In this document: positions 18,101 to 34,546 of the stretch, one piece after another
Layout of the letters: the number at the start of each line of letters is the position of its first letter
Position numbering within the stretch: the first letter of the stretch is position 1
Assembly (NCBI GenBank): GCA_008330645.1
Contig: VLTN01000037.1
Coordinates: 186,001 to 250,000 of the forward strand
Length of the DNA stretch: 64,000 bases
Direction: 5' to 3'
Source of the DNA: Cafeteria roenbergensis
Taxonomy: Eukaryota; Sar; Bigyra; Bicosoecida; Cafeteriaceae
Translations under genes and position numbers: made by a program
The notes under the pieces: generated by a model
The model's database searches: none
The model's input: the letters and a program-made list of their open reading frames with translations, nothing else
What the model was told of the DNA's origin: nothing

Positions 18101-21100
18101 TGCTGAACCGCGGAGTCACCTCGGCGCGGCCGCCGCCCGGCGGGGCGGCGCCGCAGACCAGCATGGTGTCCTGAATGTGCTTGAAGAAGAGCTTCTCGCG
18201 GTCGTAGAAGCCCTTGAAGTCCAGGAACTGTCGCAGCAGCTCGATGGGCGGCTGGGCCCCGTACTCCTCCACCGCCGGCATGTTCACGTCGTCCACGAAC
18301 ACGACAGCGCGGCGGCCGACTGGAGCGCCGATGCGGTCCTTGGTCTTCTTCTCAAGCTTGCCCTCGATCGTGGACTGCGTTCCGAGCGACGGGGTTTGCG
18401 CGGAGAAGTTGATCACGATGGGCGTGGTGGGCTTGCCTCCGGAGAAGCCGTCCGCCGACGTCTTGTTCAGGTAGTCTGCCACGATGACGGTTTTCCCTGT
18501 GCCGGTGACGCCCGTGAAGAACACGGGGTGGAGGCGGTCGACCTGGGCCGTGAGCAGGAAATCGAACCTGACCGTGTCCAGCGTCGGGACGACGAGGTCG
18601 AAGTAGGGCAGGGAGCGGTCGTACTCGAACGCGGGAACCACCTCCTGCCACTTGCGCCAGCGCGCCTCGGGCTCCTTGTCTGGCTCCAGCTGCCCCGAGA
18701 ACTCGGGGAACAGGTCGAAGACGGTGCCGCCCCCAGGCCACCGGCCGACCGTGGACAGCGTCGAGTGCCCCCTGCAAAAGCTGTCGAACTCGGCGTAGGC
18801 CTCGCCGTCGATTGAGCCTCCGATCGCCCAAACGAAGCTGAACGCGAAGAGCCTGTCCAGCACTGGCAGAAGCTTCTCATCCGGCAGGCTCAGGTCGAGC
18901 GAGGTGCCCTTTTTCTCGCGCCCGAGGAGGGACGTGAAGAGGCTGCAGAGCGAGGTGGTAAGCTGGACGTCCACAGTGACGATGCGCTCCTTCTCCAGGG
19001 CGCGCTGCGCCTCAAGGCCGTCGGCGACGGTGGACAGGAAGAGGCCAAGGATGTGTGCGCGCACGCCTTCGCTCAGCGACTCGGGCAGGTCCCGCGGCAG
19101 CCAGGAGCGCACGTACGGCTCCCATCCCAGGTTGTCCGGGTTGACGTACACCACTCCAAGGCGCGAGACCGTGGCCGGCGAGGCCTGCTCCAGGTCCCCC
19201 ACCTCGAAGAGCATCCTCATGGTGTCCTTGAGCTTGATGCGCTCGCCGTTGGCGAGGCAGAGCATCTTGTTGTCGTCCAGCACCGTGTTCATGTTCTCGA
19301 TCCAGAGGGCGTCCACCGGGCCGTCGAACACCGTCCACTTCTTGTCCTCGTCCTCCATGGCCACGTTCCTGCGCATCAGAGTCGACGCGAGACCGTCGGT
19401 CCACTCCTGGGTCACCGGGTCCAGGTCGCCATACAGCTCGCCCATTGTGATGCACTTGGGGTTGAGAACGTTCGTGTGCACGGGCTGGAATGGCTCCCCC
19501 TTGGGCGACACCACGCCCTTGCTTGCAAGCAGCGTCATGGCGTCCTGGAGCACTTCGTAGATTCGCGTCTTTCCGCCCCCGGTCGGTCCGACGAGCACCA
19601 CGCCGAAGCGAACCTCGAACGTCTTGTACAGCTGGACGACCTTATCGATGAAGCCGGACACCAGCTGCAGTCCCTTGCTCGTGATCACTTCCTTGACCGC
19701 CACGAGCAGCTGCCCCAAGTCCTCCTCCGGCACTGTCACGCCGGGGAAGAGGTCCTGGACGATGGCATAGAACAGCGGCAGGTCCTCGGCCAGGAACTTG
19801 GGGACGTTGGAGTTTTGCATCGCGCGGATCAGCACAACGTCCTCGGTGAGCCGGCCCGCAGACTCGCGCTTGCCGTCGCCCGCCATAACCAGCACGCTCT
19901 TGACGGCACGCATGCCGAAGTCGTAGTGGCGCTGCTGCGAGAGCTGCTCGGAGGACAGCTTGTACAGCTTGGTCATCTTGCGGGCGAGGTTGCGCGCGTC
20001 GTCGAAGCCCTCGGCGTACAGAATGATCTCCGCAATCAGGGCGTAGTCGGGCACCATCATGGCCACGGGCCGGAAGAGAATCTTGAGGTTGTCGGGCAGC
20101 TCCGTGCGGCCGGCGTAGCCGGGGTTCATCGTGATGATGACGCAGTGAACCTTGAGCTTGATGCTGCGCCCCTCAAAGTCCATGTGGGTGCGGTCAGCGA
20201 GGATACCCTGGCGCAGCTGCTGCAGTTGCTGCGCCACCACGGAGAGCACCTCGATGTCGATGCGGTTGAACTCGTCGAGGCAGGTCCAGGAGCCGCCCTG
20301 CGCGAGGCCCGCGAAGTGCTTGCCCATCTGCTTGTACGTGATCTGGTCGGAGCAGTTGAACACGATGCACTGGATGGCGACGTTCTTCGCGAGGTCCTTG
20401 GACGACTCTGTCTTTCCCGTGCCGGCGGGCCCCGCAGGCGCGGCGCCAAGTCGCAGCGCGACGGCGCCCGTGATGGTCATCCAGCAGCGGTCGGTGAGCG
20501 GCGTGATGACCAGCCTCCCGGCGCAGCCTTGGTACTCGTAGCCGTACTCGATTTTGGAGTCCGACTGCTTGACCTGCACGCGGCCATCGCCGTCGAGGTA
20601 GAAGCGCAGCTGCTGCTGCCACGTGAAGTTGCCCACGTCGGCAACCTTGTCAGCAACCATGCGGTCGATGATGTCGCGGGCGTGCACGTCCACGGTCACC
20701 AGGGCCACAACGACCTTGCGGAGGCGCTTGATCAGCTTTTCGCGCACCATGCGCGTGAGGCCTCGCAGCTGCACGTTGTTCTGCTCGAGCCACTTCTTCA
20801 TGCTCCCCAGAGCGTCGCTGGAGCGCAGCGCCGCCTCCGTGCCGTTGGCCCACTTGATTTGCGTCACGGTGGCCACCACCTGGCCCTTCTTCTCCCGCAC
20901 CCAGTCCTCGCGGCCCTCGTCGGTGTAGTCGCCGCAGCCCTCCTTGATCAGCACTTGAAGCGACTGCTTCATGTTCTCTTCCACCTCGCTGAGCCACGAC
21001 TCGACCTGTCCGCGAGCCTTGAGGTTCCGGCCGAGCTCGACAACCTCCCCCTCGGGGCTCTTCATGGCCAGGATGTCCGTTGACCCCTCCTCCTCGCCGA

Positions 21101-24100
21101 AGTCAAGGCGCACCAGGGCGTCGAAGCACTTGCGGAGGTGCGGCTGGACTGCCTGCGGGTCGCGCGTCTGCGCCAGGATCTCGAGGAGCTCCTCGTCGGA
21201 GAGGAAGTAGAAGCGAGGGAAGGCGTTCCGCTTCGTCTCCAGGTACTCCTCGAGCGACTTTTGGATCACGTCGAGCGACTCGTTGTGGCGGGCCAGCTGC
21301 TCCTTCATGCCCTTGACCGTGCCTGCCACGATGGCCCGCGGGTTGTCGTTGGTCCGGCGCATGATGGTGCGCCAGCTCTTGTCCACGGCGGCAAACTTCC
21401 GCGACTCCTCCGGGAGCTGGCGCTTGATGTCCTCTGCGGCGAAGATGGTCTCGAGGTACATCCAGTTGCGCTGGCAGGTGAGCCACTCGTCGAGCGTGTC
21501 TGAGAGCAGGCGCAGCTTGCGCTGCTCCTCCTCCACGGGCCCGCGAATCGCGCCGACGAAGCGCGAGGCGAGGATGGTGTTGATCGTCACGAGCGACTCG
21601 TCAAGCGCCGCGAAGACGTCGTCCACGCCTCCCAGGATGAACACGTCCTTGGTGTCCTTGTAGGGCTTGAGGTCGAACTCCAGCTCCGCCCACACGGATT
21701 CGACCTTCTTGCGGAACAGCTCCATGAGCGCAGCCTCCTGCACCGCCTTGGTGGAGATGGCGCCAATGGCCGAGGCCTCCCTGACGACTCCCATCTCGAT
21801 GAGCTCCCCCACGCTGTAGTCCTTTCCTTCCTCCAGCTCCACGCCGAGGGCCTCCTGGATGTCGCCCCAGTGCCGCGAGGTGAGCGCCTCGGATCGCAGG
21901 TTCACCACGACGGGGACGAGCGTCTGGAAGTCTTCCACCATGGCGCGCAGCTTGGGGGCCGCCTTGTTCCCTGGGAGGCCGCGCTCGCCTCTCACTGCCG
22001 TCTTGATGTACCCCTGGACCTCCTTTCCCATGACGTCGGCGTCGATGGCAGAGAGGGCCGTGTCCCGCCAGGCGTCCACGCGGCTGTCCCACTCGCGGAG
22101 CGCCCGCCACAGGTTCCGCTTGAGCGTGAGGTCCACCTGGAGGTCCTCGATGACGTCATACTCGGCAACCGGCTGAGAGAGCAGCGTCTGCCACTTCTGG
22201 TACGTGTCGGACAGGGCCACGAGGGACTTGAAGTCGTCCTCCTTTGCGGCCATGAACCGGTCCACCTCCTCAGGGTCCGAGTCTGCGGAGGCCACCTTGC
22301 CGTGGTCCAGCTCCGCGCGCAGCGCCGAGAAGTCGGCGCGGAGTTTCTTCACGAGCTTCTCCACCGTGGCGCTGAACTTGGCCGTGTCCTCAGCCTGGGC
22401 GGCCTCAAACTTGGTCGCGGCGTCCTCCACGCGCCGAATCTGCTCGCCGACGAGGCGGCGCATCGTCTGCTCCTCGTCGCCGATTGGCCAGCGCTGCTCG
22501 ATCATCAGCTGCGCGAGCGACGTGGCGTGGGCGATGCCGTTGCGCAGCTCGCCCTGCCGGTCGTGGAAGCGGTGCAGCGTCGACACCTTCTCGACGAACG
22601 GCTCAACGTCCTTGGGGTCGCTCTCGAGGATGGCCGTCATGGGCCGCATTTCCGAAAGCAGCTCATCGCACTGCGCGTGGATGAGGCGGGGCAAAATGTC
22701 CCGGGTCCGCTGCAGCACGCGGTTCGGGCTCGGGATGAGCTCGAGCTTGAGCGCCTCGCTGTCGACCCGAAGCACGCCCACGTCGCTGCAGTACGGGGCC
22801 GTGGTGATGGCGTCCGCCTGGCTGCGGAACTTGTGAAGCAGCGCCTCCAGCACAGGCAGGGGCGTCTGGGTCGACAGCGCCTCGGCCAGCGTAAATTCGC
22901 GGCGCGCGTTGCGGATAAACGTGCGGCCGAACGGGCGAAACCGCTCCACGAACGACAGCACCCGGTCGAAGGCGCTGTCCAGGGCAGCCATGGCAGCGTG
23001 CTGCACCCGCTTGTACCGCGGATCGCGCAGAATCATCTGGGTGAGCTGGTCGCTGGCGCTGTCTCCGTCCCCGCCGAGGTCCAGCTCCCCGTCCTCTGCC
23101 GCCGTCTGCGTGTACGGGAGGAGGTCCTCGTGCGTGAGCAGCTGGGGAACCGTGGCCACCACCTCCATCGCCTTTGTGAATGCCGACGCGATCCTGGACC
23201 GGAACACCTGCTGCGGAGGGTCCAGCGCCAGGTCTGCCTCGGCGTCGTCCAGCGGAGCAGTGTCGTCCTCCGCGACGATGGCCTTGGCAGCGGCGTACGG
23301 GTCCGCCTTGGCCGCTGCTGCCGCCGCCGGGTCGCCCTCACCGTCCTTGCCCTCGGCCTCGCTCGCGGCTGCGGCTGCGCCGGCAGCGGAGGGGCCGCCC
23401 TCCTCGCTGGCCTGACGCCGCGCGTCCTCCTCGCGAGCGCGCGACACGCCCTGCGCACGTGGCGAGAGGGCCCGCTCTGACAGGATCACGGCAACGGTCA
23501 GCAGCGGCCGCCGCAGGCTGGCTGAGCCGCCAGCGCCTGCCTCGTCCGTCTCAGATGCGGCGGCAGCGACGGCGGCCGCGCCGTGCGCGCCGGCACGGCC
23601 GCGCCTCTTGGACGCCGCGGCCGCGCGCTCCGCCGCCGCAGCCTCCGCCCCTGCGAGGGGGCCGACGTCGGCTTCAATGGCGGCGGCCTCGGCGGAGAAG
23701 TCGGCCTCGCGGGTGCTGAGGTCAGTGAGGATGCGGAGCGGCGGCTCCTCGCCCTCTGCCGGGCTGAGGAGGGACATGAGGGCGGCTGCCGACGTGAGCC
23801 CGAGGCCGAACAGGGTGTCCCTCACGACAAAGTCGGCCAGCCTGATGAAGCGCGTGAGCCGCTTGCACTCCCCGCGCAGCGCGGCGCGCTCCATGAAGGA
23901 CATGCGGCTGTCGCCGCGGATGCCCTTGGTGTCCAGAAAGGCGTCCAGCACCTCGTCGCACGCGCCGCGGACGAGGGCCCGGGCGTCCTCGGCGAACTCC
24001 CTCAGCCACACGCCGGTGGCCCGGCGCTTCTCGGCCTGGTTCCGCACAAACTCGGTGAGAGTGTACGTGCGACGGGTGTCGGCGTGGAAGAGGCTCCACT

Positions 24101-25235
24101 CCGAGACGGCGGAGCACAGGCGGTGGAGGCGGGCGAGCGCGCGCCGGAGGGCGGGCTCGTTGTGGAACAGCAGGGCGGAAACGCGCTTGTGGGCGATGGC
24201 CCGCTTCCTCCGCGACACGTGGAGCCGCCAGGCGGAGAACGACTTCCAGCGGCGGAACAGGCGGAAGAAGCGGACCCGCTCGATGGCCAGCAGGTTCGCG
24301 TGCTCCGCCTCCCACTCCGGGAGAGGAGTGAACTCGGACGTGGCCCCCACGAAGCGAGTCACCCCGCCAGCGGAGAGAGTGTAGTAACCGCCCTCGTCGT
24401 CCGTCTCGGCGCCCGGGGTCACCTGGAGCAGGAAGGGGGGCGCCGAGCGGCCGTCCGACTCGACGCGGCGCATGTAGACGAAGTCCCCCGCCTCGATAGC
24501 CTCCAGCTGCTGCTTGGAGAGGCCCAGGCTGGCGACGAAGGACACTCCTGGCCGGCGCAGCTCCTCAGCCGTAGGGGGCGCCGAGCCGTCCTTGCGCTCC
24601 GCCGAGTCGTCGTCGTCGGCGTTGCCGCCGAGGGAGGAGGAGGCCAGGGGCCGCTCCCGCCGCCGCACTGCCGCGCGGGACAGCGAGGCCGCCGAGGCGC
24701 CTGCAGCGGAAGCGGCGTGGGACGCAGTCGCCCGGGGCAGCCCCGACCGCGCCGTGCTCGACCGCAGAAGCGATTCCCGCGCCCGGGCCGGCGTCGCCAG
24801 GGAGGCGGCCGACGCCGTGGAGCCCATGCCTCTGGTCGCAGCGCTGCCGGACGAGCTGCCGAAAAGCGAACCGCTCCCGCCCGAGGGAAGCGGCCTCTTG
24901 GCCGCCGCCATGGCGATGATGGGCCGGCCGTCGGGCGTCAAGTGCACGTCGCGGTTGCGCGACCGCGCTGCCGAGGCCCTCGCCAGCAGCCCGGTCGAGC
25001 CGGTTTGCCCGGTGGTTGCCAGCGCTGCCGACGCCCCCTGCTTGCGCGGCCGCGGCACGAGCGAGGCAGTCGACTCGGCCATCCCGCCTGAGCCGTGCGA
25101 CAGCCTCGTCGCCGACAGCGACGAGCCGAGGCCGCCCGCCCCTGAGGGCCGCGCCACGACGCGGTGCGCAAGCGAGGCCGGGTCCACGGCGCGCGGCGCG
25201 CCCGGAAGCGACGCCCCGCTGAGGGATGGCAGCAT
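12195..25235 (-). CDS. Axonemal dynein heavy chain, single-headed inner-arm type (DNAH6-like)
   Basis: A 4346-aa single-exon ORF of normal dynein heavy chain length. P-loops, in order: AAA1 GPAGTGKT (about residue 1601), AAA2 GPTGGGKT (about 1881), AAA3 GVTGTGKT (about 2240) and AAA4 GVGGSGKQS (about 2600). AAA1 Walker B is CLDEFNRID. The two coiled-coil halves of the stalk with the microtubule-binding tip lie near 2800-3150, and AAA5 (GRPLLIEDIGETLDP) near 3280. The C-terminus (LSTTGMSTNFV ... CQLND) is typical of axonemal rather than cytoplasmic chains. The AAA1 text (YKQMGKHFAGLAQGGSW, IDIEVLSV) and the tail segment ECKRLTRFIRLADF are closest, from memory, to DNAH6/DNAH14, so an inner arm is likely but the class is inferred. 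The protein uses ATP to slide axonemal doublets. Oddities are a Ser/Ala-rich N-terminus, a Gly-rich insert near residue 3780 and an Asp-rich insert near 4040. Confidence 0.97.
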   Translation of the reverse strand: MLPSLSGASLPGAPRAVDPASLAHRVVARPSGAGGLGSSLSATRLSHGSGGMAESTASLVPRPRKQGASAALATTGQTGSTGLLARASAARSRNRDVHLTPDGRPIIAMAAAKRPLPSGGSGSLFGSSSGSAATRGMGSTASAASLATPARARESLLRSSTARSGLPRATASHAASAAGASAASLSRAAVRRRERPLASSSLGGNADDDDSAERKDGSAPPTAEELRRPGVSFVASLGLSKQQLEAIEAGDFVYMRRVESDGRSAPPFLLQVTPGAETDDEGGYYTLSAGGVTRFVGATSEFTPLPEWEAEHANLLAIERVRFFRLFRRWKSFSAWRLHVSRRKRAIAHKRVSALLFHNEPALRRALARLHRLCSAVSEWSLFHADTRRTYTLTEFVRNQAEKRRATGVWLREFAEDARALVRGACDEVLDAFLDTKGIRGDSRMSFMERAALRGECKRLTRFIRLADFVVRDTLFGLGLTSAAALMSLLSPAEGEEPPLRILTDLSTREADFSAEAAAIEADVGPLAGAEAAAAERAAAASKRRGRAGAHGAAAVAAAASETDEAGAGGSASLRRPLLTVAVILSERALSPRAQGVSRAREEDARRQASEEGGPSAAGAAAAASEAEGKDGEGDPAAAAAAKADPYAAAKAIVAEDDTAPLDDAEADLALDPPQQVFRSRIASAFTKAMEVVATVPQLLTHEDLLPYTQTAAEDGELDLGGDGDSASDQLTQMILRDPRYKRVQHAAMAALDSAFDRVLSFVERFRPFGRTFIRNARREFTLAEALSTQTPLPVLEALLHKFRSQADAITTAPYCSDVGVLRVDSEALKLELIPSPNRVLQRTRDILPRLIHAQCDELLSEMRPMTAILESDPKDVEPFVEKVSTLHRFHDRQGELRNGIAHATSLAQLMIEQRWPIGDEEQTMRRLVGEQIRRVEDAATKFEAAQAEDTAKFSATVEKLVKKLRADFSALRAELDHGKVASADSDPEEVDRFMAAKEDDFKSLVALSDTYQKWQTLLSQPVAEYDVIEDLQVDLTLKRNLWRALREWDSRVDAWRDTALSAIDADVMGKEVQGYIKTAVRGERGLPGNKAAPKLRAMVEDFQTLVPVVVNLRSEALTSRHWGDIQEALGVELEEGKDYSVGELIEMGVVREASAIGAISTKAVQEAALMELFRKKVESVWAELEFDLKPYKDTKDVFILGGVDDVFAALDESLVTINTILASRFVGAIRGPVEEEQRKLRLLSDTLDEWLTCQRNWMYLETIFAAEDIKRQLPEESRKFAAVDKSWRTIMRRTNDNPRAIVAGTVKGMKEQLARHNESLDVIQKSLEEYLETKRNAFPRFYFLSDEELLEILAQTRDPQAVQPHLRKCFDALVRLDFGEEEGSTDILAMKSPEGEVVELGRNLKARGQVESWLSEVEENMKQSLQVLIKEGCGDYTDEGREDWVREKKGQVVATVTQIKWANGTEAALRSSDALGSMKKWLEQNNVQLRGLTRMVREKLIKRLRKVVVALVTVDVHARDIIDRMVADKVADVGNFTWQQQLRFYLDGDGRVQVKQSDSKIEYGYEYQGCAGRLVITPLTDRCWMTITGAVALRLGAAPAGPAGTGKTESSKDLAKNVAIQCIVFNCSDQITYKQMGKHFAGLAQGGSWTCLDEFNRIDIEVLSVVAQQLQQLRQGILADRTHMDFEGRSIKLKVHCVIITMNPGYAGRTELPDNLKILFRPVAMMVPDYALIAEIILYAEGFDDARNLARKMTKLYKLSSEQLSQQRHYDFGMRAVKSVLVMAGDGKRESAGRLTEDVVLIRAMQNSNVPKFLAEDLPLFYAIVQDLFPGVTVPEEDLGQLLVAVKEVITSKGLQLVSGFIDKVVQLYKTFEVRFGVVLVGPTGGGKTRIYEVLQDAMTLLASKGVVSPKGEPFQPVHTNVLNPKCITMGELYGDLDPVTQEWTDGLASTLMRRNVAMEDEDKKWTVFDGPVDALWIENMNTVLDDNKMLCLANGERIKLKDTMRMLFEVGDLEQASPATVSRLGVVYVNPDNLGWEPYVRSWLPRDLPESLSEGVRAHILGLFLSTVADGLEAQRALEKERIVTVDVQLTTSLCSLFTSLLGREKKGTSLDLSLPDEKLLPVLDRLFAFSFVWAIGGSIDGEAYAEFDSFCRGHSTLSTVGRWPGGGTVFDLFPEFSGQLEPDKEPEARWRKWQEVVPAFEYDRSLPYFDLVVPTLDTVRFDFLLTAQVDRLHPVFFTGVTGTGKTVIVADYLNKTSADGFSGGKPTTPIVINFSAQTPSLGTQSTIEGKLEKKTKDRIGAPVGRRAVVFVDDVNMPAVEEYGAQPPIELLRQFLDFKGFYDREKLFFKHIQDTMLVCGAAPPGGGRAEVTPRFSRHFHMLCVPQSSDDVLKHIFGSIVAGFLEVFPSDVQAQAPRVTTATIDVYKNIREAMRPTPAKSHYTFNLRDVSKVFQGILMVDKKGCPSGDVFIRLWAHECLRVFHDRLVDAKDKAWFTNAVAELIKRVFAKSSAGWSHEDLFEQEKPLLFVDFVSPKMDDGPGRYEEASSMDKVVHRLTEALEDYNMSHPTQMRLVFFRDAVEHVARVARILRQPRGNAMLVGVGGSGKQSLTRMACALAEIPCTGVELTRGYGRNEFREDIKKRMLQAGVKGESLAFLFTDTQIVEEGFLEDINNVLNTGEIPSLWASDELTAIVDGVRPAVQERGIPETLDNCMRFFVSRVRDNLHIILAMSPVGDSLRVRCRNFPSLINCCTIDWYMPWPEDALLSVARQFLMERDLGASEAVNAAVCVMCGLLHTSVERGSERFFAELQRRVYTTPKSYLDLINLYTKMLDERQSQIGRARDTLKTGVEKLAEADSAVAGLKEGLVELQPVLERKQVETAELLERVGVEKGEADAIEVKVSAEAAIVADQVAEAEAVQADAQTELDKALPALEQAERDLAKLTKGAISEVKSFAQPPEAVKVVLEAVCILLGEKPDWETAKRVMSRTTFLDELKGYDKDNIPPRALAKIRETYIDHPLMVTADVTRKSGAAGPMCAWVHAVNTYSIVAKEVEPKKLKLAALNAQVAQAQEELAGKQAALKEVQDKVAALQQQADETEAEKERLESEAKLTEDRLVRAGKLTTGLADEQVRWKESVSRLEKQITALVGDVLIAAGCVSYLGPFTGAYRDEMLEGWVSGCREHGIPCSEAPTLMNTVGDAVVVRQWQIDGLPTDAVSTDNAIMVTRGERWPLMIDPQEQAKRWIKRMEVRRRLASSKLSNPNMLRTLESCIRLGRPLLIEDIGETLDPALEPVLAKAIFKQQGRTLIRLGDNDVDYDDRFSFYMSTKLPNPHYMPEVCIRVTVINFTVTMSGLEDQLLGAVVSKEAAEVERRRNKLVVSMASDKRQLKELEDKILELLRKSTGMIVDDVELIDTLGESKELSKVINARLEESMKTNEIIMETREKYRPVAERGAIIYFVIADLSRIDPMYQFSLAYFKRLYDLCIDEAAKSDILETRLKNLMSYMTETVYANVCRGLFEAHKLLFSFLICIQVMRKAGTVADTEWSALLRGAGLTENPAENPAEDLLPEAAWNLVSAIQTSMPAAFGGLSDHIASRLDLWRAWAEGDEPQSEPMPAPWDTQLNSMQKMLILKVWREEKLLFAIKDFVVEHLGRPFVESPPVRMADIHGETRADVPVVFILSVGADPTGLLFSYAKQVDYSSRLQLISLGQGQGPRAQALIREACHTGDWVLLQNCHLAKSWMPDLELIVERLGEVVGGLAAGPQDESQSAGEGGAAGGGGSGAGGGGGVAGVIPSSVHPDFRLWLTSMPAPYFPVPVLQNGVKLTNEPPKGVRANLTRSLANVDTWTSWADGIDGKFDNGVDRKTAWHKLGFGLMFFHAVIQERRKFGPLGFNIRYEFNDSDLETSLQVLKRFLGEQPVVPWEAMRYVTGQINYGGRVTDDWDRRCLMSILGQYVTPSVLDDSYRFSASGEYFAPPSGKLETFQAYVAGLPQNDGPGIFGMHNNANITFQANETDAILKTCLSIQPRAAAATSSGDEAGGKDDEDDDGDDDAALVSGPDAEVSALASEVASALPALLDREEAGESTFVYRGEHMDSLATVLSQEMVRFNKLLAVMERSLMELQKAIRGEALMSDELDRMYGALLNNQVPGNWEAAAYPSLKPLASWTKDLATRIEFMRSWVVGGQPAVFWLSGFFFPQGFMTGTLQNHARKYSLPIDTLGFGFTITDKPQASDVVEADVPEDGVLVSGLFMDGAQWDATRRSVAESKPGEMFSSVPVIHFRPEQDYKPNPAEYSAPVYKTSVRAGTLSTTGMSTNFVIAVDMPTDADPAKWVLMGCALLCQLND

Positions 25236-25586
25236 TCTTGCCCCGTCAGCAGAGTGGGGCTGGTCTCAGTGAGCGATGACGGCGCGTCGCTGCCCCGGAG
25301 ACGGGCAAGGGAGGTGCGCGCTGCTCACGCCCGGCTGCGCCTCGCCAACCCGACAAGCCGTTTGGTTTTGGTTTTGCTGCTGGCACCCCGCACCCGGCAG
25401 AGCCGCCGCCTTGCCCGCGACTGCCGGCGGCGGCACAGCCACGGCTCAGCCGCCGCCGGCCCGCCTCAGGCTGGCTTCCGGGCGAGGGGGAGCGCGGCGT
25501 GCCCCGGGCAGCTGCCGGGTGTGCCAGCTGGCAGCGCAAGTGCGCGCCCGCCGGTTCACCCTTCCAGGTCTTGCGCCAGGTCCGCG
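25236..25586. promoter_or_regulatory. Bidirectional promoter region, dynein heavy chain / ankyrin gene
   Basis: A 351-base spacer separates the ATG of the dynein gene (-) from the chosen ATG of the ankyrin-repeat gene (+), so both promoters and 5' leaders must share it. It is GC-rich, with a slightly T-rich patch around 25361-25380 (the GTTTGGTTTTGG stretch). No X-box, TATA or other named motif could be supported by eye. Confidence 0.5.
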
Positions 25587-28112
25587 ATGGCGGCTCGGCC
25601 CTCGGCTTGGTCGCTCTCGAGCGCCGCGGACGCGCTGAGGGACCCGGTGACGGGGAAGGCGCTGCTCTTTCGCGTGCCTGGGGACGCCAGGCCGGCGAGC
25701 TTGGCCGACGAGGAGCTTCTGGAGGCGGTTGCAGCAGACGACGCCGAAGCAATTCGCTTTTTCGTCCAACAGCGCGGTGCTGACCCGGGGCTTGCTGACT
25801 TTCTGCATCGAGCGGGCGCACGTCCTGTCCATGCTGCGGCGACGGGGCGGCGCTGGAGTGCGCTGGGCGCGCTGCTCGATTGCGGCGCGGAGGCCGACGC
25901 CGGCGACTCTCGCGGTCGCACGCCGCTGCACCTGCTGGCCAGGCAAGGGGACGAGAGCGCCGTTCGTCGGCTCCTCACCACAGCGTGGGCGCGGGGCCAG
26001 CGCGTGAGGGCCAGCCGGGCCTGCCTGGGGTCGGGTTTCACTGCCCTACACATGGCCGTCCACAGCGGCAGCGAGGAGCTGGTGGCTCTGCTGCTGGAGG
26101 TGCTGGCCGCGGAGGCCGAGGAGGGTGGTGGCTGCGGGCAGCCTCCGCCTCAGCGCGGGCGAGCGGGCGGTGCGGCGGCGACGGGCCAGGAGGGCGCGGC
26201 AACGGACAGCCCCTCGGCTGGGAGCCGCGCTGGTGCGGCGGGAGGCAGCGTTGGCATGCCCGCCCAAGTGCCGCTGACGGTCCCGCTGCCAGCGGTGCGG
26301 GCTGCGGCTGAGCGGGGCCTCGGCGCCGTGAGAGCGCACCTGCAGAGTCTGTGGGGCGTTGATCCGGCGAGCGGGGCGCCTGCCGCTGGACGGGGGACGG
26401 GATACGCGGAGCCGAGTGGCGGCGGTGGCGGTGGCAGTGGCGGCGATGGCGATGGCAGCGGCGGCGGCGGCAGTGGCGGCAGTCGCTGTGAGAGCGCTGG
26501 CGATCGCGGCGCCGAAGACTCCGGCCGTGCTGCCGGAGCCACCACGGTGCCTGATCGCACGAGGGCCGCCCCCGCCGAAGCGTCGCTCGGATCCGCGGTG
26601 CCTGCCGGGGTGGCCAGGGCGGCTGTGCAGGCCGAGGCGGCGGCCAGGCGGAGGGGCTTGCTCGCCGCCGGTGATGGGCTGGGGATGCCCCGGCGCGCGC
26701 AGGACTTTGGCGGAGGGCCGAGCGGTGGGCAGGACGAGGTGTCGCGGCTGCTGCTGGGCGACAGGTGGGCCGACGTGGTGGCGGGGGGCAGCAGCATGGC
26801 TGCGAGGGTGGAGGGGTCGCTGCTCGGTCTGGGGTCCGGCGGCCACCACCACGAGCGGCGCGGGGAGAGAGGCGGTGTCGCTCAGGGCGCCGCCAGATCG
26901 TCGCTCGCGGGCCTTGGCGGCGCCGAGATGGACAGGGGCAAGGTGGTCTCGGACGCGTGGGACGACGCGGAGGCGGCGGCGGAGGCCGAGGAGGCTGACG
27001 AAGCGAACGCGGACGCAGCCTCCGTGATAGCCACTGGCGAGCTCACGCCGCGCCCGGCGCAGCTGCAGGGGGTCACGTTCGCGACGATGGTGAAGGAGGA
27101 CGCGGAGGCCAGGGCCCGGGCGGAGCCGCGCAGCCGGGACCATGCGTGTTCGGCTGTGGCTGCGGGTTCGGCTGTGGCAGCGGGGTCGGCTGTGGCTGCG
27201 GGTTCGGCTGTGGCAGCGTGTTCGGCGGGGGCGCCTGCGCGCCGCGGGGGCGGCGCTCTGCCGGGGCGGGCGGGCGCTGCGGCGCCGGCCGCCGGGGCGG
27301 TCGCGGCGGGCCGGGGTGCCGCGGGTTCCGCGTCAGCTCCAGTGAGGGAGCTAGCGTCAGTGCCGGGGGAGGTGGAGGCGCCGTGGCTGCGCGAGGACTG
27401 CGCCGGCGACGGGGATCGTGCGGGTGCGCCGAGCCCGAGCCCGAGCTCGAGCGGAGGGCCCCGGCCGGGGCGGCGGGTGCCCGCCGCGCTGGTGGACGCC
27501 CGGACATCGCTCGGGGAGACGGCTCTGCTGATGGCCTGCCGACTCGGAAGGAGCCGGTGCGCCGCCGCGCTGGTGGCGGCCGGGGCGGACCCCGCGGCAC
27601 GCACGGCCATGGGCAGGACGGCCCTCGGGCTCGCTGCGGCCGGCGGTTTCGCGGAGCTGTCAGCCGACCTGATTGAGCACTGCGGATCGTCGCTGTTCCG
27701 GTGGGAGGACGCCGGGGGGTCGACGTCGCTCGAGGTCGCGGCGCGCATGACTGAGCCCGAGTCCGTGGTGGCACTGCTGTCGCTCGAGGAGCGGCTTCGC
27801 GAGAGCGCAGAGGCGAGGCTGAAGGAGCGGGAGAAGCAGCACAGACGGGAGGCAAAGGCGGCGGAGCAAAGGCGCGCCCAAGCTGCGGCCGAGCGCCGAG
27901 CAGAGCGCAAGCGCGCAGCAGAGGCAAGGCTCGAGGCCGAGGACCGCGCATACTTGGCGCGCTGCCGCGCTGCGCGCAAGGCCGAAGCGCAAGAGCAGAA
28001 GCTGGTCTTGTCGGAGATTGCAAAGGTGCGAGCCGCAGCCGCAAGGCGCGAGAAGGAGGCCTCTCGCCAGCGGTTCAAGGCGGCGAATGCTCGCCTCTCG
28101 CCGCCCGGGTGA
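25587..28112 (+). CDS. Ankyrin-repeat protein with Arg/Glu-rich coiled-coil tail
   Basis: An 841-aa protein of unknown role. The frame is open further upstream into the dynein gene, but the ATG at 25587 is the first that leaves a spacer. Ankyrin repeats come in two blocks: residues about 45-170 (SRGRTPLHLLARQGDESAVRRLL, then GFTALHMAVHSGSEELVALLL) and about 635-700 (LGETALLMACRLGRSRCAAALVAAG, MGRTALGLAA). About 450 residues of low-complexity Gly/Ala/Ser-rich sequence separate them, with an 18-bp tandem repeat. The last 110 residues are highly charged (EKQHRREAKAAEQRRAQ) and look like a single alpha helix or coiled coil. Ankyrin repeats bind proteins, and no catalytic domain is visible. Sharing a promoter region with an axonemal dynein gene makes a ciliary role possible, but that is only inference. 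Confidence 0.85.
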   Translation: MAARPSAWSLSSAADALRDPVTGKALLFRVPGDARPASLADEELLEAVAADDAEAIRFFVQQRGADPGLADFLHRAGARPVHAAATGRRWSALGALLDCGAEADAGDSRGRTPLHLLARQGDESAVRRLLTTAWARGQRVRASRACLGSGFTALHMAVHSGSEELVALLLEVLAAEAEEGGGCGQPPPQRGRAGGAAATGQEGAATDSPSAGSRAGAAGGSVGMPAQVPLTVPLPAVRAAAERGLGAVRAHLQSLWGVDPASGAPAAGRGTGYAEPSGGGGGGSGGDGDGSGGGGSGGSRCESAGDRGAEDSGRAAGATTVPDRTRAAPAEASLGSAVPAGVARAAVQAEAAARRRGLLAAGDGLGMPRRAQDFGGGPSGGQDEVSRLLLGDRWADVVAGGSSMAARVEGSLLGLGSGGHHHERRGERGGVAQGAARSSLAGLGGAEMDRGKVVSDAWDDAEAAAEAEEADEANADAASVIATGELTPRPAQLQGVTFATMVKEDAEARARAEPRSRDHACSAVAAGSAVAAGSAVAAGSAVAACSAGAPARRGGGALPGRAGAAAPAAGAVAAGRGAAGSASAPVRELASVPGEVEAPWLREDCAGDGDRAGAPSPSPSSSGGPRPGRRVPAALVDARTSLGETALLMACRLGRSRCAAALVAAGADPAARTAMGRTALGLAAAGGFAELSADLIEHCGSSLFRWEDAGGSTSLEVAARMTEPESVVALLSLEERLRESAEARLKEREKQHRREAKAAEQRRAQAAAERRAERKRAAEARLEAEDRAYLARCRAARKAEAQEQKLVLSEIAKVRAAAARREKEASRQRFKAANARLSPPG
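27147..27218 (+). repeat. 18-bp coding tandem repeat, 4 units
   Basis: Four copies of an 18-base unit (core TTCGGCTGTGG) that alternate at two positions, encoding four SAVAAG-like hexapeptides in the linker between the ankyrin blocks. The phase is preserved, as expected of a coding repeat. Confidence 0.9.
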
Positions 28113-28345
28113 CTCCTGCCGGCGCCACAGACTGTCCGAGCGTGCGAGGGTGTCCCCCGTGCGCGTTGCCGTCGTGTTACGAGCATTGTGGAGCCCGGCC
28201 ACCGGCGTGGCAGCGCGCAACGCGCTTAGCCGCTTGCAGAGCTGCAACTCACACGCGGCTTGCCAAATTCAGCACTCGCCGTAGCCGATTGGCAGGAGAG
28301 GGAGGGGAAGGCTGCGACCTCGCCTCTGATGCGAAGCGCCCGGAA
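28113..28345. other. Tandem spacer before the TIPE-RGS gene
   Basis: About 230 bases between the ankyrin gene stop and the proposed first ATG of the next same-strand gene. It must contain the ankyrin gene 3' end and the promoter of the next gene. No specific element is recognised. Confidence 0.4.
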
Positions 28346-30661
28346 ATGGATCGTCTCGCGCATTTCGTGAGCTGAGCCGCGCAGTGGGATGGGGGGAGGG
28401 GGGGGGGGTGCGGCGGCGCGCCGCCGCAAACGGAAGCTGATTCCTGGCCCGGCGTCGTGCAGAAAGCCCGACCGTCCCGCGACGCCTGCCTGGGCCCCGC
28501 GCCGCCTCGTCGCGGCCGCAGTGAAACTCGCTTTGGGAGGGCCTCGCTGGTCAAGGCGTTCGGGCCAGAGGGTGCTGAGTTTGTGTCGATCATCGAGTCA
28601 GCGACCGAGAAAGGTGAGCGCGCCCGGGCGCCCGACTGCGCAAGCGCCGCGCAGGTCTCGGAGGTGCCCCGCTGGCCCGCCTGCTGCGCCAGCAAGTGGC
28701 GCGTGCGCATGCATCCCAACCGCAGTGCGCGCGCGCGATGGCTCGAGCGTGCCCGCGAGGGAGGCGAGCTCAGGGACGCCAATCGGCACGCGTTGCCAAT
28801 TGCTGCCTGGGTTGCCGCAGTCACCGGCGACAAAGCCAAAACGGACGAGCTCCTGTCGGGCGTCGTGAAGATGCTCACCAAGGTCGGCCTGCTGTGGAAG
28901 GAGGGCAAGCTGGACCAGAAGGCAGTGGAGCACCTGCGGGAGCCCGGGCAGGCGATTGCGGAGGAAGCTGGCTTGCTTCTTCGCCAGGTCGGCGCCCACT
29001 TGCCCGCCGACGACGGCAGCTCCTCGCTCCCCGGCTCCGCGGCCCAGAGCAGGCGGGGGTCGTCGTCGTCGGCGGCGGCAGCGGCGGCTGCGGGGTCTGG
29101 GTCGGCGGCAGGCGGCCGTGATGCGATCATTGACGTGGTCAGCCTTGTCTCGCAGTGCGAGGCCTGGCGCAAGCTTGCGCTCCCCGTGCTGGAGGGCCTC
29201 ATCCGCGACCGCAACATCGCCCGCGGGCACACGCTGGGCCAGTTTTACACAGGAACCACGTTCGTGACAGCGCTGCTCTGCCGTGCCGACTTGCGCCCGG
29301 AGCGCGAGCGGCTCGTTCCCCTCGTCGACGAGGCCCTCCGCCGCTCCGGCAAGGCCGCGCTGGTGGACCGCCCCAAGTGCGTCATGGTGGGGTGCGATTT
29401 GCCTCGCGCGACCATCCCAGGCACGGACTTTTGCCTCGCCCACCACGCCATCCGGTTCTCCAGTCCAACCACGCTTCAAGAGTTTCTCGACAGCCCTGTG
29501 TACCGCGGCTGCCTGGCTGACTACCTGGAGACGGACCGGCCGCACCTTGCACCGCTGCTGGCCTTCCTGGAGCGCTGCGACTCCATCACGTCGGCCGGCA
29601 CGAGGGCCGTGCTGCACGAGCGCACCAAAGCCATCGTACGGAGGTACGTTGCGCCGGATGCGGAGGACCGGCTCTTCTTCCTGGACTGCAGCCAGCACAT
29701 GCCCGCCGAGGCGGCGGCGGCGGCGTCGTCAGCTGCGTCAGCGGCGGCGGCGGGGTCGTCAGCAGCGGGCGATGGGGCTTCGTCCCCCCTGGCCGCCATG
29801 GGGCCTGGGACCGAGCTGGAAGGGCAGGCAGAGCCACTTCCCTGGGGCAGAGCGGGCTTTGACTCCACAGTTGCCGATGCGGTCAGGCCAGTGCCAGAGC
29901 CCCGGCCCGTCGCGCTGGCCGACGCACGGTTCGCTGCTGTGGGGGGGCGGGTCTCTGCGCTGGACGCGTCGCGGGTGCAGCGTGCCGCCGAGAACCTGTG
30001 CAGACTGGCCGAGACGCCCTCCGCCCCGATTCGCGGCGACACGTTCGTGGGGCTGACGAGCACCGCCCTGGCCATTCTGGACGCCGAGTTCGTGGGCGCC
30101 TTCCCGCACTCGAAGCAGTTCCGGGCCTGGGCCGAGGACAACTTGGGCCTGCCCCTCCCCCGCATCAGCTTTGCGCGGCTTCGCATGCTTCTCGAGCGTG
30201 GCGTGTCCGTCGAGAGCATCACCGGTAGCCACGTCAGGCAGGCTGGCCCCGGCGTGGTCGTTGCCGTGACGGAGATTGGCACGTCGGCCGTCGGGGCCGG
30301 CTTGGGGGTGCCCGTCAGCCTCGAGACAGGGGAGCCCTTGGAGGGCTCAGAGCGCGAAGCAGCGCTTGCCATCGTCGCCCACCTGCTCCCCAAGGCGGCG
30401 GCGGCGGCGGCAGCAGGGGCAGGGATCTCGGCAGAGGCGCAGCCTGAGTCGGAGCCTGGGCACAGGCCGGAGACCGAGGCAGCGGGGTGCGACAGCGGGG
30501 TCAGAGGCGCGGCGGAGCGGCTTGGAAAGCTGGGCTCCGCGGGGGGACTGGGGTCTGGCCCGAGCGACTGGTCGCCTGAGACCCCCGTGGCGGCGGCGGG
30601 CAACGGGCTGCCGGACGAGGAGCCTGCTCCGGCCGAGCACGTAGTCTCTTTCGTCGTGTGA
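28346..30661 (+). CDS. TIPE (TNFAIP8)-like helical domain fused to an RGS-like domain
   Basis: Proposed exons are 28346-28366, 28463-28613 and 28821-30661, giving 670 aa. The second intron is likely although the frame stays open through it: removing it joins FVSIIESATEK directly to TGDKAKTDELLSGVVKMLTK, as in the first helices of TNFAIP8/TIPE proteins. The match continues with VGLLWKEGKLDQ and GQFYTGTTFVTALLCRAD, which parallels the VFDHFSDCEFLAALYN region. Next comes a C-x4-C-x12-C-x2-H cluster (CVMVGC ... CLAHH). Then comes an RGS-like stretch (TLQEFLDSPVYRGCLADYL, LLAFLERCDSI) with a low-complexity insertion. TIPE proteins bind lipids and modulate phosphoinositide and small-GTPase signalling; RGS domains act on G-alpha. 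A G-protein or lipid signalling role is inferred. The 21-nt first exon is tentative. Confidence 0.65.
28367..28462 (+). other. Proposed intron 1 of the TIPE-RGS gene
   Basis: The donor GTGAGC follows ATG GAT CGT CTC GCG CAT TTC, and the acceptor is GTGCAG. The phase is 0 on both sides, length 96. It gives the only in-frame ATG available, since the downstream frame has an upstream stop at 28373 and no ATG. Tentative. Confidence 0.45.
28614..28820 (+). other. Proposed intron 2 of the TIPE-RGS gene (frame-preserving, 207 bp)
   Basis: The donor is GTGAGC and the acceptor TTGCCGCAG, phase 1. The length is a multiple of three with no stop, so it could be mistaken for coding sequence. Its translation is Arg/Cys/Trp-rich and interrupts the first conserved helices of the TIPE-like domain. 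Confidence 0.7.
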
Positions 30662-31154
30662 GGCCGAGAGCGCGGCGCTCTGCAGAGCTGGGGCGTTAGG
30701 AGGGGGCAAGGGGGGAAGGGCAGTGCTCGGCACGGAGGCAATGCCTATGGGAAACGCGCTATGTATCCGGCGGCGACTATGCCGCGGGCAGCGTTTTGGG
30801 GCGGTCGTGTGATAGGTGTTCGTGGCTCGACGACAACTTGTGACTTTGCGTGGCTGGCCAGCGTCCTGCTGGGCGAAAAGGCGGACCGGCGCAACCGCGG
30901 GCGGCAGGCAACTCTCACGGCTTCGCTCGGGTGAATGCCGTGCTGCGCGCCCTCGGTGCCCAGTCACGCGGCCCGGCTTGCCCGCCCATTGCGGCCACCG
31001 TGCCCACCGACCACACACAGCCTGCCAAGTGCGCAAAGCGCGCCGCGCGGCGCGCGCCGCGCGCCGCGCGCCGCTCGCAGGGCGGGGGCGCGTGCACTCG
31101 CTGCCGTAACGAGGCCAGGGTTTGCGCCGGCTTGGCCGCGCCCGCGGAGTCACG
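30662..31154. other. Convergent spacer with a GC palindromic tract
   Basis: 493 bases between the 3' ends of the TIPE-RGS gene (+) and the channel gene (-). It contains a dense run of CG/GC steps at about 31038-31074, able to fold into several hairpins. It also has a less GC-rich part around 30740-30850. Small ORFs cross it in several frames but lack recognisable content. No gene is called. Confidence 0.6.
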
Positions 31155-34100
31155 CTAGATCTTGCGAAGCACCGCCGAGGCTTGCCCAAGCGACGTTTGG
31201 TGCTGCACCACCCCTCCCGTGGAGAGCCGGCGCCGGCTGTTGATGCGGAGAGATACCCGGCCCGATGCCCGGGGTTTCGCCGCGGACGACGGCTCCGCGC
31301 CCGGCAGAGGCCGCCCCTGGATCAGCGCTCGCTTGACGGCCTCTCGCGCGCGGCTTGCCTCGCCGATGTGCGCCAGCCCGTAGCCGAGCACCACGCTGTT
31401 GAAAATGGTGGAGATGAGGATGTGGGCGATGCAAGCGAGCCGGGCGTACCAGGCAGAGGGCGCGACGTCGCCGAAGCCCGTTGACGACTGCACGGCGAAT
31501 GAAAAATACATAAATTCAAAGACGAGGGCAAGCAGGACCGACCCGGACTGCGTTGGCTGCTCTCCACCTCGGGGGTCCTGCCAGGCTCTCTCCGGCACGG
31601 TAAAGGCGTTCTCGCCGGCGCCGAGCAGGAATATGAGGAGGTAAATGCCCCCAAACGCGATGACCAGAGCCAGGTACGCCTGCAGCAGCACGAGCACAGT
31701 GACGCTCCACGCCCGCGCGACGAACTTGAGCGACGTGGACACGATGAGGACGACTTGGGCAATTTGCAGCGCAACCGCGCCCCACAGCACACCCGTCTCC
31801 CCGAGGCCCTGCTGCCTGCGAAGCACGTCGCTGAAGCCCGGGTCCGCCATCACCACTCCCACCACCAGCAGCTGAAGCGTCGCGGACACCAACACCAGGC
31901 GGTTCCGAGCCCAGTGCCGAACCAGAGTCACTGTCTCGTCGTGAACGATGGCATCGCCCCACACCCGCATGCGAAGCTGGCACGGCCGGGAGCACCAGCA
32001 CCAGCTGCAGCGGCCTCGCCGCGCACTTGCATCCGCCGCAAATGGCGTTGAAATCGCCGCCCGGATTGTGGCCAGCGCTGCCACGGAGTCCGTGCCGCCG
32101 CCCTCCGTCTCCGCATCGGACGCGCCGAAGCTCTCTTCGCCATCGCTCCAAACGTCGCTGCTGGTGGACACTCCGCCCTCGCTGCTGCCGCTGCCCTCGT
32201 CCACGGCGGGGAGCATATTGTCCATCGACGCAAGGTCGTCCTCCAAACCGTCCTCGGTCATTCCGGACGCCCGTCCCCAAGACGGCCGCCGCGCCGCACC
32301 TGGCCCCGCTCCCAGCTGTGAGGGAGCGAGCGTGAGCGGCTCCATGCGCGGCGGCCCGCCGAAGGACCCAGCGCGCCTGGGAGAGCGCCGGGGCGAGGCG
32401 CGCGCCGCTTGCCGCGGGGAGGGCGCCGGTCCCCGGCTGGACTGCGATCGCTCGATGCGGGCGATGGAGTCGGCGCGCGCCCGGGCCTGCGCTTCGGCCG
32501 CGGCCGCTGCCTGCCTGGCCGCTTCCTCGGCTGCGGCCGCCGCCTCCTCCTCGCGCCTGGCCCGGCGCCGCTGCCGCTCTCGCCGCCGCCGCTTCGCCCG
32601 CTCCTCACGCCTCTCAACCGCAGCAGCTTGCGCTGCGTCCCGCCCAAAAGCCGGAAGCACCTGCGCGATGATAAACACCCCAAAACACACCCCAACAACC
32701 TGCTGGGCGATGGCCACGCCCTGCGCGGCTGGCGTCATCGGGAGCGCGTCCCCAAGCCCCACCAGCGCCTGCGTCTCCACGCTGAAGAACAGCAGGACGA
32801 ATAAGATACTGGCCCCCTGCCAGGCGGCAGCCGGGGTCGGCCCATCGGCCGCTCGCTCTGCTTTGCCCCCAGAGCCGGACGGCTCCACCCAGGGGCGACC
32901 CGCTGCCGCCGCTGGAGCCGCTGCCGCTGTCGCCGCTGCCGCCGACGCCGCTGCCGCCGCTGGAGCCGCTGCCGGCATCGGCGCTGCCGTCGTCGAAGCG
33001 CCACGGCAACCAGCGCTTGCGAGCGCTTGGCCTTCGCAGGGCGGCGCGCTCGCAGGCTGCATCGCGCTCGCAGGCTGCATCGCGCTCGCAGGCTGCATCG
33101 CGCTGCCTCGCTGCGGCAGGCGCGCCTGGCCGGCCAGTAGCTGGCCAAGCAAGCCCCGCGGCGGCCGGAGGCCAGCTCCGCCACCAGCACGGGCTCCACG
33201 CGTCATGGCGGCACGCGCTGCCGTGCCGAGCGCGGTGTCCGCTGCCGGGACCGACCCCGCCTGCGCCAGCTCAAGGGCGGCCGTGCCGCCCACGCCGCTG
33301 AACCCGCTGACGTCATCGGCGAGGTGGGCAAAGGACCCGACGTCCATGAGGACGAGCAGTGAGTAGAGCCCCAGGAACGCCAGCGCCGTCGCCCCGAACA
33401 GCGCCAGCGCCCCCCACAGCGTCGCCCGGCGGCGAGCGAGCGCGAGGTGCGGCTGTTGGGGGGGAGCTGAGGCGTGCCCGACCCCCGCGTCAGACCCGGC
33501 CGACAGAGGCGTGACGGGCGACACCGGGGAGTCGGCGGCAGCGGCCGCAGCGTCCCGTAGCTGGGCTGCCCGGTCGAGGCGCGCGCCGGTGAGAGCCTCC
33601 CTGGCCGGCCCGCTGGCCAGCGTCCCCGCGGCGGCGGAGACCGAACGGCCGTGACCTTCCCCGGCGCGGGGAAGGCTGCTCCCCTGCGGCAAGCCGCCTG
33701 CCCCCGCCGCGCCCGCGCCCCATGGCGCAGCGGCCGGCCCGGCCGGAGCTCGCGACCCGGACTGATTGGCTGCCGACCCCAGGGCAGTCAGCGCCGACGG
33801 AACAGCCCTCCACCGCTGCCCGGCCGCGACGCCCACGCCGGGAGTGGACCGACGGGGCGCCTCCCGGGCCTGAGGACTCATCGTCCCGGATCCCGCGCTG
33901 TCGGACCACCTCGGGCGCGCCTCAGCAGGGGGAGCTTGCGCGTGCTCGCTCTCAGCGGCAATGGCCGCCGCTTCGGCGCCCCCCAACCCGTTCGAGGCCC
34001 CCGCAGCGCACACGGTCCAGATAGTCAGAATCGCCTGCACAATCTGCGCGCCCCCCACTGCCAGCAACGTGGTGTCATCCCCGAGCAGCAGCCGGTTGTC

Positions 34101-34244
34101 CGAGACGCGGACCCCCGCGCAGAACAGGCCCGCCGACACCAGCTGGACCACGAGCGATCCAGCAAGTGCCACCAACAGAATGCGGTCTGTCGCAGAGCAG
34201 GACCTTGGCGCGGACGGCTTGGGAGGCGCACTTGCTGTTGGCAT
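31155..34244 (-). CDS. Two-pore-domain, internally duplicated K+-type channel
   Basis: A 1029-aa membrane protein made of two similar halves. Each has about three hydrophobic helices, a pore loop and a last helix. Pore 1, near residue 488, reads SVETQALVGLGDALP; pore 2, near residue 920, reads AVQSSTGFGDVAPSAWYARL. GLGD and GFGD fit the T-x-G-x-G-D selectivity filter of potassium channels, and pore 2 is the more canonical. The long linker (about residues 530-740) is Arg-rich then Ser/acidic, probably cytoplasmic. A low-complexity loop lies before pore 1. Known two-pore K+ channels (TWIK type) have 2+2 TM segments. Here each unit carries extra preceding helices, so it is not a plain K2P. No voltage-sensor Arg ladder is evident. 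The product probably conducts K+ at a plasma or organelle membrane. It shares a 302-base upstream region with ARMC2. Confidence 0.8.
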   Translation of the reverse strand: MPTASAPPKPSAPRSCSATDRILLVALAGSLVVQLVSAGLFCAGVRVSDNRLLLGDDTTLLAVGGAQIVQAILTIWTVCAAGASNGLGGAEAAAIAAESEHAQAPPAEARPRWSDSAGSGTMSPQAREAPRRSTPGVGVAAGQRWRAVPSALTALGSAANQSGSRAPAGPAAAPWGAGAAGAGGLPQGSSLPRAGEGHGRSVSAAAGTLASGPAREALTGARLDRAAQLRDAAAAAADSPVSPVTPLSAGSDAGVGHASAPPQQPHLALARRRATLWGALALFGATALAFLGLYSLLVLMDVGSFAHLADDVSGFSGVGGTAALELAQAGSVPAADTALGTAARAAMTRGARAGGGAGLRPPRGLLGQLLAGQARLPQRGSAMQPASAMQPASAMQPASAPPCEGQALASAGCRGASTTAAPMPAAAPAAAAASAAAATAAAAPAAAAGRPWVEPSGSGGKAERAADGPTPAAAWQGASILFVLLFFSVETQALVGLGDALPMTPAAQGVAIAQQVVGVCFGVFIIAQVLPAFGRDAAQAAAVERREERAKRRRRERQRRRARREEEAAAAAEEAARQAAAAAEAQARARADSIARIERSQSSRGPAPSPRQAARASPRRSPRRAGSFGGPPRMEPLTLAPSQLGAGPGAARRPSWGRASGMTEDGLEDDLASMDNMLPAVDEGSGSSEGGVSTSSDVWSDGEESFGASDAETEGGGTDSVAALATIRAAISTPFAADASARRGRCSWCWCSRPCQLRMRVWGDAIVHDETVTLVRHWARNRLVLVSATLQLLVVGVVMADPGFSDVLRRQQGLGETGVLWGAVALQIAQVVLIVSTSLKFVARAWSVTVLVLLQAYLALVIAFGGIYLLIFLLGAGENAFTVPERAWQDPRGGEQPTQSGSVLLALVFEFMYFSFAVQSSTGFGDVAPSAWYARLACIAHILISTIFNSVVLGYGLAHIGEASRAREAVKRALIQGRPLPGAEPSSAAKPRASGRVSLRINSRRRLSTGGVVQHQTSLGQASAVLRKI
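33046..33099 (-). repeat. 18-bp coding tandem repeat, 3 units plus a partial
   Basis: Three exact copies of an 18-base unit (GCGCTCGCAGGCTGCATC on the + strand) followed by a partial copy. On the coding strand it gives SAMQPA repeats in the extramembrane loop before pore 1 of the channel. Confidence 0.93.
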
Positions 34245-34546
34245 CGCCGGACTGGCAACTCAGTCTGAGCCCGGGACCGAGGCCACACCCGAGAGACGGC
34301 GCGCCTGCCGCCAGCCCCACAAACAGGTGCGCGTGGGCGCCGCGCAGACCGGTGCAAGCCGGGCCGCGGCGCGCCGCGTGCTGGGGCTGTGCCTTGGGGC
34401 GCGTGCTGCAGGCGAGCAGAGCCGGCCCGTGATTCGGCGGACCGGACCTTGCAGCGGGGGGGGAGTGCACGCAGCGCCGCTGCAGCCGGCCTCGACGGAG
34501 GCTCGGACAGCGACACCAGCGGCTTTGGGGGGGGGCGGGGCCGATC
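34245..34546. promoter_or_regulatory. Bidirectional promoter region, channel / ARMC2
   Basis: 302 bases separate the ATG of the channel gene (-) from the proposed first ATG of ARMC2 (+). Both promoters must lie here. It includes a G-run around 34526-34537 just upstream of the ARMC2 start. No defined motif is recognised. Confidence 0.45.

Follow-up and report, generated by a model that had tools for sequence, protein, structure and literature searches.

A predicted gene of Cafeteria roenbergensis with resemblance to the TIPE (TNFAIP8) and RGS families fused in one exon

Proteins of the TNFAIP8/TIPE family, a lipid-cavity family that includes animal immune proteins, are known as small single-domain proteins. 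The family is conserved in animals, and for unicellular organisms, for example Dictyostelium, one weakly related protein, Gip1, is described (PMC7170861). Gip1 of Dictyostelium discoideum consists of a PH domain and a TNFAIP8-like C-terminal region and binds heterotrimeric G proteins; the TIPE-like region binds Gβγ via the geranylgeranyl group of Gγ, and changes to Trp in the cavity abolish this binding (PMC6219514). Gip1 is reported to keep part of the heterotrimeric G proteins in the cytosol, with the prenyl group apparently in the cavity (PMC6219514, PMC8369479), and its authors raised the possibility that lipid modifications are the targets of certain TNFAIP8 proteins (PMC6219514). Mouse Tnfaip8 is reported to form a complex with Gαi3, which is lost in a mutant without bound cavity lipid (PMC5524748). 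An earlier note on the DNA studied here had described TIPE proteins as mainly stand-alone animal proteins, but TIPE-like domains also occur outside such proteins, as in Gip1, in which a TIPE-like region is joined to a PH domain.

Combinations of G-protein modules with other domains have precedents in protists. In Naegleria, 7TM-RGS and RGS-RhoGEF proteins are known, and RGS domains joined to other modules are reported to be active GAPs on several Gα subunits, though none of them was active on Gα1 (PMC9283941). Fusions of G protein-coupled receptors with phospholipid kinases are also on record for protists (PMC5784254).

Here we describe a predicted gene of Cafeteria roenbergensis in which a TIPE-like domain is followed by an RGS-like domain, a kind of module that normally switches G proteins off. 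Profile comparisons of the encoded protein support both family resemblances, the RGS one less firmly, and their fusion in one exon. The features of the gene are collected in Table 1; positions refer to the window, that is, the whole stretch of 64,000 nt that was analysed.

Table 1. Features of the TIPE-RGS gene, by position in the window
Feature	Position	Strand	Basis
Candidate first coding exon (MDRLAHF), uncertain	28346..28366	+	In-frame ATG, then GTGAGC; requires a second intron
Exon with N-terminal part of TIPE, 5' boundary uncertain	28463..28613	+	Open frame; alignment with TIPE1-3/TNFAIP8
TIPE domain, first part	28523..29005	+	Split by the intron; spliced-protein residues 28-119; Pfam PF05527
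Probable frame-preserving intron	28614..28820	+	GT...AG ends; longer TNFAIP8 reach without the intron
Main exon, 612 full codons and stop	28821..30661	+	Most of TIPE, knuckle, RGS, tail
Ala/Ser/Gly-rich linker inside TIPE domain, 37 residues	29006..29116	+	TNFAIP8 score rises without the linker
TIPE domain, second part	29117..29374	+	About 13 bits above shuffled second halves (5/5)
Cys/His knuckle C-x4-C-x12-C-x2-H(H), possible zinc site	29378..29446	+	Pattern; between TIPE and RGS
RGS domain, first part	29474..29686	+	Pfam PF00615, profile 2-71/117
Ala/Ser-rich insert in RGS domain, 93 residues	29687..29965	+	Composition; RGS score rises without the insert
RGS domain, last part	29966..30130	+	Extends match to profile 114/117
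C-terminal tail, no recognised domain	30164..30658	+	No Pfam match in full-length scan

The N-terminal domain proposed in the earlier note to be TIPE-like was borne out by the Pfam TNFAIP8 profile (PF05527; cut-off 22.5 bits). As in animal TNFAIP8 and TIPE1-3, the profile is matched above its cut-off, here by the spliced N-terminal piece (25.7 bits, E 1.2e-5, profile positions 33-92); the full spliced model of 670 aa falls just under the cut-off with 21.6 bits. Removal of the 37-residue linker brings the score to 33.0 bits (E 7.2e-8), with the match then covering positions 33-158 of 181. Shuffling of the second half of the domain lowers this score to 19.5-20.1 bits in five of five shuffles, and the second half alone gives no Pfam match. 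At the level of residues, the first part of the domain is similar to stretches of PDB chains 8gyn, 5jxd, 4q9v and 3f4m. Pairwise comparison of its first 70 residues with PDB stretches (200 shuffles each) yielded z 9.6 for TIPE1, 7.0 for TIPE3, 4.7 for TNFAIP8 and 3.0 for TIPE2, the last being an alignment in which the best of the 200 shuffles outscored the real sequence. The alignment with the chain stretches of TIPE1-3 and TNFAIP8 begins at E46 of the spliced protein. A phmmer search of the PDB returned TIPE1 (8gyn) only at non-significant E values of 2 and 0.45, behind unrelated chains. With a chimeric query anchored on TIPE1, four TIPE chains were found, and all four alignments ended at query residues 57-80 of 163, without going far into the second half.

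The TNFAIP8 profile also bears on the gene model, for which the earlier note had postulated one frame-preserving intron and a start at position 28346. The plus-strand frame is open from 28376 to 30661 and contains a candidate intron of 207 bp with the ends GTGAGC...GCAG. Without the intron the TNFAIP8 match begins at profile position 33, as compared to position 44 and a sub-cut-off score of 21.0 bits in the unspliced N-terminal piece. Because the spliced and unspliced pieces are not alike in length or starting residues, and the complete spliced model still falls under the cut-off, the bits partly reflect context, and the longer reach along the profile is better evidence for the intron. Codon-position composition does not set the intron apart and speaks against it, because in a block of 150 bp that is nearly all intron (28613-28762) GC at third positions is 0.86, as high as in the exon. 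Reading the candidate intron as a coding insert was rejected, since its inclusion shortens the TIPE match; composition does not decide between the two. The postulated intron is thus probable by its effect on profile reach, whereas third-position GC gives it no support. The postulated start is blocked when only this intron is removed, since a TGA at 28373 is in frame with the ATG at 28346. Either a second intron is needed, for example 28367-28462, which ends in CAG and would link this ATG to the frame, or the true start lies elsewhere.

The fusion itself is independent of the intron call and of the choice of start, because most of the TIPE domain and the whole RGS domain are located in the main exon. 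GC peaks at the third codon position in 11 of the 13 blocks of this exon; one further block shows a tie, and the single exception falls in the Ala-rich insert. Under independent bases at its composition, an open frame of this length has a chance of about 1e-5. The length alone is not proof, given that long open frames are numerous on both strands of the window DNA.

Between the two domains, the Cys/His knuckle noted earlier behind the TIPE region was located at 29378-29443. It has no Pfam match and is a possible zinc site; the pattern alone is weak evidence, because its loose form has three further matches across all six reading frames of the window.

For the RGS-like region, the outcome depends on the insert. 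As encoded, the region remains below the cut-off of the Pfam RGS profile (PF00615; 23.9 bits), the full model scoring 20.8 bits (residues 276-348) and the C-terminal piece 22.5 bits (E 1.5e-4). After removal of the 93-residue insert, the score at the best junction is 31.7 bits (E 2.1e-7; profile positions 2-114 of 117). Four junctions gave 31.7 and 30.9 bits (both 2-114), 25.6 bits (2-79) and 24.9 bits (2-71), and the two higher-scoring ones had been picked after the RGS-like flanks were viewed, a selection that favours them. Shuffling of the second half reduced the 31.7 bits to 24.1-26.2 in five of five cases, with the match never going beyond profile position 74. The last part of the domain, which has no Pfam match by itself, thus contributes about 5 to 8 bits. 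The insert differs in composition from its surroundings, with a second-codon-position GC of 0.72 and 0.60 against 0.48-0.56 in four flanking blocks. Pairwise similarity to RGS chains is weak (200 shuffles; RGS3 z 4.1, RGS4 z 2.8, RGS8 z 2.7), and for both RGS4 and RGS8 the best of the shuffles scored above the real sequence. No RGS chain was found by phmmer in the PDB at E up to 10, and an HMM with just three RGS chains as its input scored 0.8 bits, a profile too narrow to judge by. The RGS assignment of the earlier note is upheld, less firmly than the TIPE one, because the region passes the cut-off without its insert but stays under it as encoded.

One might ask whether the appearance of a fusion could be an artefact of two adjacent genes, or of helical Ala-rich sequence that matches the profiles by chance. 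The model is a predicted one, its sequence is rich in Ala, the DNA around it is GC-rich and full of long frames on either strand, and the searched collections, mainly of viruses and prokaryotes, contained no independent relative. A single open exon spans both domains, however, and none of six control domains (four of six shuffles made, and both reversals) matched TNFAIP8 or RGS. The real second halves outscored the shuffled ones in 10 of 10 comparisons (TIPE 5/5, RGS 5/5), and the TIPE and RGS families have a known functional link. We regard such an artefact as highly improbable. With regard to relatives, a peptide pattern search matched three stretches in viral contigs and 593 in genome contigs, of which none was confirmed as a relative, and tblastn against phages found none. 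As these collections are mainly of viruses and prokaryotes, missing relatives say little about eukaryotes.

Structure models predicted by AlphaFold without an alignment neither support nor contradict these assignments. The main-exon part of the TIPE domain was modelled with six helices at a mean pLDDT of 51.9, too poor to show a cavity, and the RGS part at a mean pLDDT of 41.5, too poor to show an RGS fold. Foldseek searches with these low-pLDDT models gave nothing at E up to 0.001. At E up to 10, the poor TIPE model (pLDDT 51.9) had 86 matches, the best with E 1.3 and no TIPE chain among the best 50 of the 86, and the poor RGS model (pLDDT 41.5) had 22 matches with no RGS chain among them.

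The positions by which RGS4 contacts Gα, which we take to be two Asn, an acidic residue and an Arg, are kept in part. The first interface Asn is not kept in the candidate domain. At the second, Asn is found in the MAFFT alignment against three of three RGS chains and in two of three pairwise alignments. The acidic position near the end of the domain is a Glu, and the Arg that follows is replaced by Ala. With some contact positions changed, the domain cannot be taken to be an active GAP. The candidate could instead be a scaffold with a degenerate RGS fold that binds something other than Gα, much as Axin uses its RGS domain to bind other proteins, with the TIPE domain acting as a sensor of lipid or membrane. 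The sub-cut-off score as encoded, the insert of 93 residues and the changed contact positions would all fit such a scaffold. We nevertheless judge it unlikely, considering that the second Asn, in the alignments just named, and the acidic residue are kept and that Naegleria RGS domains on multi-module proteins are active GAPs, Gα1 being the reported exception (PMC9283941).

For the TIPE domain, simultaneous changes of TIPE2 H28, R75, R91 and K183 are reported to reduce binding to PtdIns(4,5)P2 (PMC7170861). R75 and R91 were recognised in the TIPE2 stretch from the 16 positions between them, whereas H28 and K183 had no mappable place in it. R75 aligns with K84 of the candidate in four of four pairwise alignments, and R91 aligns with R97 in two of four (those with TIPE1 and TIPE3), the other two placing Gly there. 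Two of the four mutated positions are thus basic in the candidate, the second of them in half of the alignments, and animal TIPE2 and TIPE3 have been reported to bind phosphoinositides at the membrane. It is therefore conceivable that the TIPE domain binds membrane phosphoinositides and only brings the RGS domain there, and does not hold the lipid of a G protein. Against this stand the two positions that could not be mapped and the example of Gip1, the one characterised protist relative in the cited work, which uses its cavity for a prenyl group. On balance, such lipid guidance of an RGS domain seems to us rather unlikely.

We tentatively favour a different reading, in which the gene product is a multidomain protein, probably cytosolic, that regulates heterotrimeric G proteins and whose TIPE cavity would hold a G-protein lipid or a phospholipid while the RGS domain would meet Gα. 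The simplest reading is a soluble regulator that grips one G protein by both lipid and Gα, because the TIPE fold meets G proteins in Gip1 and Tnfaip8 and RGS domains bind Gα. From the association of domains, we infer that the two modules may act on the same G protein. The TIPE cavity would accommodate the lipid tail of one G-protein subunit, in the way that Gip1 binds the Gγ geranylgeranyl group, or alternatively a phospholipid that promotes binding of Gα, as in mouse Tnfaip8. This lipid grip would place the attached RGS domain beside Gα, and the switching off of Gα-GTP could be coupled to withdrawal of the re-formed complex from the membrane; GAP activity of the RGS domain, given the changed contact positions, would be the least certain step. 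In its strongest form this would be a single-chain 'terminate and extract' regulator, in which the RGS module turns Gα off and the TIPE cavity, by receiving its lipid anchor, lifts the re-formed heterotrimer from the membrane. We consider this strong form unlikely. If it is true, signal termination and removal of the switch from the membrane are both the work of one protein, and the holding of lipidated G proteins, not the carrying of phosphoinositides, would be the old function of the TIPE fold outside animals.

Comparison with described systems places the favoured G-protein regulator closest to Gip1. In protists the link of TIPE to G proteins has better precedent than a link to lipid transfer, because Gip1 binds heterotrimeric G proteins. 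Both Gip1 and the candidate carry a TIPE-like domain in a larger protist protein; action on G proteins is established for Gip1 and proposed by analogy for the candidate. The partner domain in Gip1 is PH, not RGS, whereas a full-length Pfam scan of the candidate, whose start is unsettled, found no PH match, and binding of a prenyl group by the candidate is likewise a proposal. The four solved animal TIPE chains have 160-198 residues, and the candidate departs from them by its linker and by the fusion to RGS. RGS proteins, including the 7TM-RGS and RGS-RhoGEF proteins of protists, share with the candidate the joining of RGS to another module (PMC9283941), and the candidate differs in its TIPE partner, its weak RGS score, its large internal insert and its changed contact positions. 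A large loop insertion in an RGS-homology domain is also tolerated in G protein-coupled receptor kinases (PMC3307776). There, as described, the insertion is the kinase and is located in the α9-α10 loop, whereas that of the candidate is of low complexity and lies further upstream in the domain. The receptor-phospholipid kinase fusions similarly join G-protein and lipid modules in protists, with entirely different domains (PMC5784254).

In the freely accessible literature pairing TIPE names with RGS, we found no description of a TIPE-RGS protein, in agreement with the earlier note. Among the matches listed, a TIPE name and RGS occur together only in the Gip1 paper. An annotated or unpublished relative may exist. 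The combination is new to us, while the TIPE and RGS parts are already known. The fusion suggests that a lipid cavity and G-protein switching work together, and its presence in a protist provides independent circumstantial evidence for the G-protein side of TIPE function over the phosphoinositide side. The protein is a concrete candidate for testing a role of the TIPE fold in G-protein signalling.

The surroundings of the gene are those of a eukaryotic genome. Average GC of the window is about 71.5% (range 62.0-77.7% in 32 blocks of 2 kb), which fits the published GC of Cafeteria roenbergensis, 70-71%; the figure given there for introns per gene is 1.67-1.89 (PMC6972860). The window contains a dynein heavy chain (4356 aa in one open frame), and other genes in it have Pfam matches to ankyrin repeats, an ion-channel pore, SET with MYND, RING with PHD, and WD40. 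Neither a tRNA nor an Rfam family at its gathering score was found in the window. The WD40 gene at 61466-62857 was examined as a possible Gβ and rejected (39.7 bits against a cut-off of 150). Equally, the ankyrin gene lying upstream and the channel gene on the minus strand were rejected as parts of the TIPE-RGS gene, as each lies in another frame or strand and has its own stops.

Several neighbouring frames deserve mention in their own right. The adjoining ankyrin and channel frames (within 25146-34259) also carry long Ala/Gly/Ser-rich stretches in translation, which resemble the linker within the TIPE domain and the insert within the RGS domain. The channel frame, of 1034 aa on the minus strand (31158-34259), matches Ion_trans_2 at residues 913-960. 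It has a marginal second pore-like match, to IRK, at residues 486-535 (22.8 bits against 22.7), in which no single stretch passes alone. Further upstream, the dynein frame (12198-25265, minus strand) covers the heavy chain from N-terminal region 2 to the C-terminal domains and stays open without any intron. A plus-strand frame of 3896 aa (305-11992) has FG-GAP repeats as its sole Pfam match at E up to 0.01. Finally, a minus-strand frame of 942 aa (47267-50092) is ChaC-like at residues 35-209 (E 1.3e-32) and matches PLP enzymes of Cys/Met metabolism at residues 648-936 (E 3.9e-15), its best NCBIfam model being BesB with 222.8 bits against a cut-off of 800. Unless two genes share this frame, it apparently encodes a fusion of an enzyme of glutathione-breakdown type with one of sulphur amino acid type.
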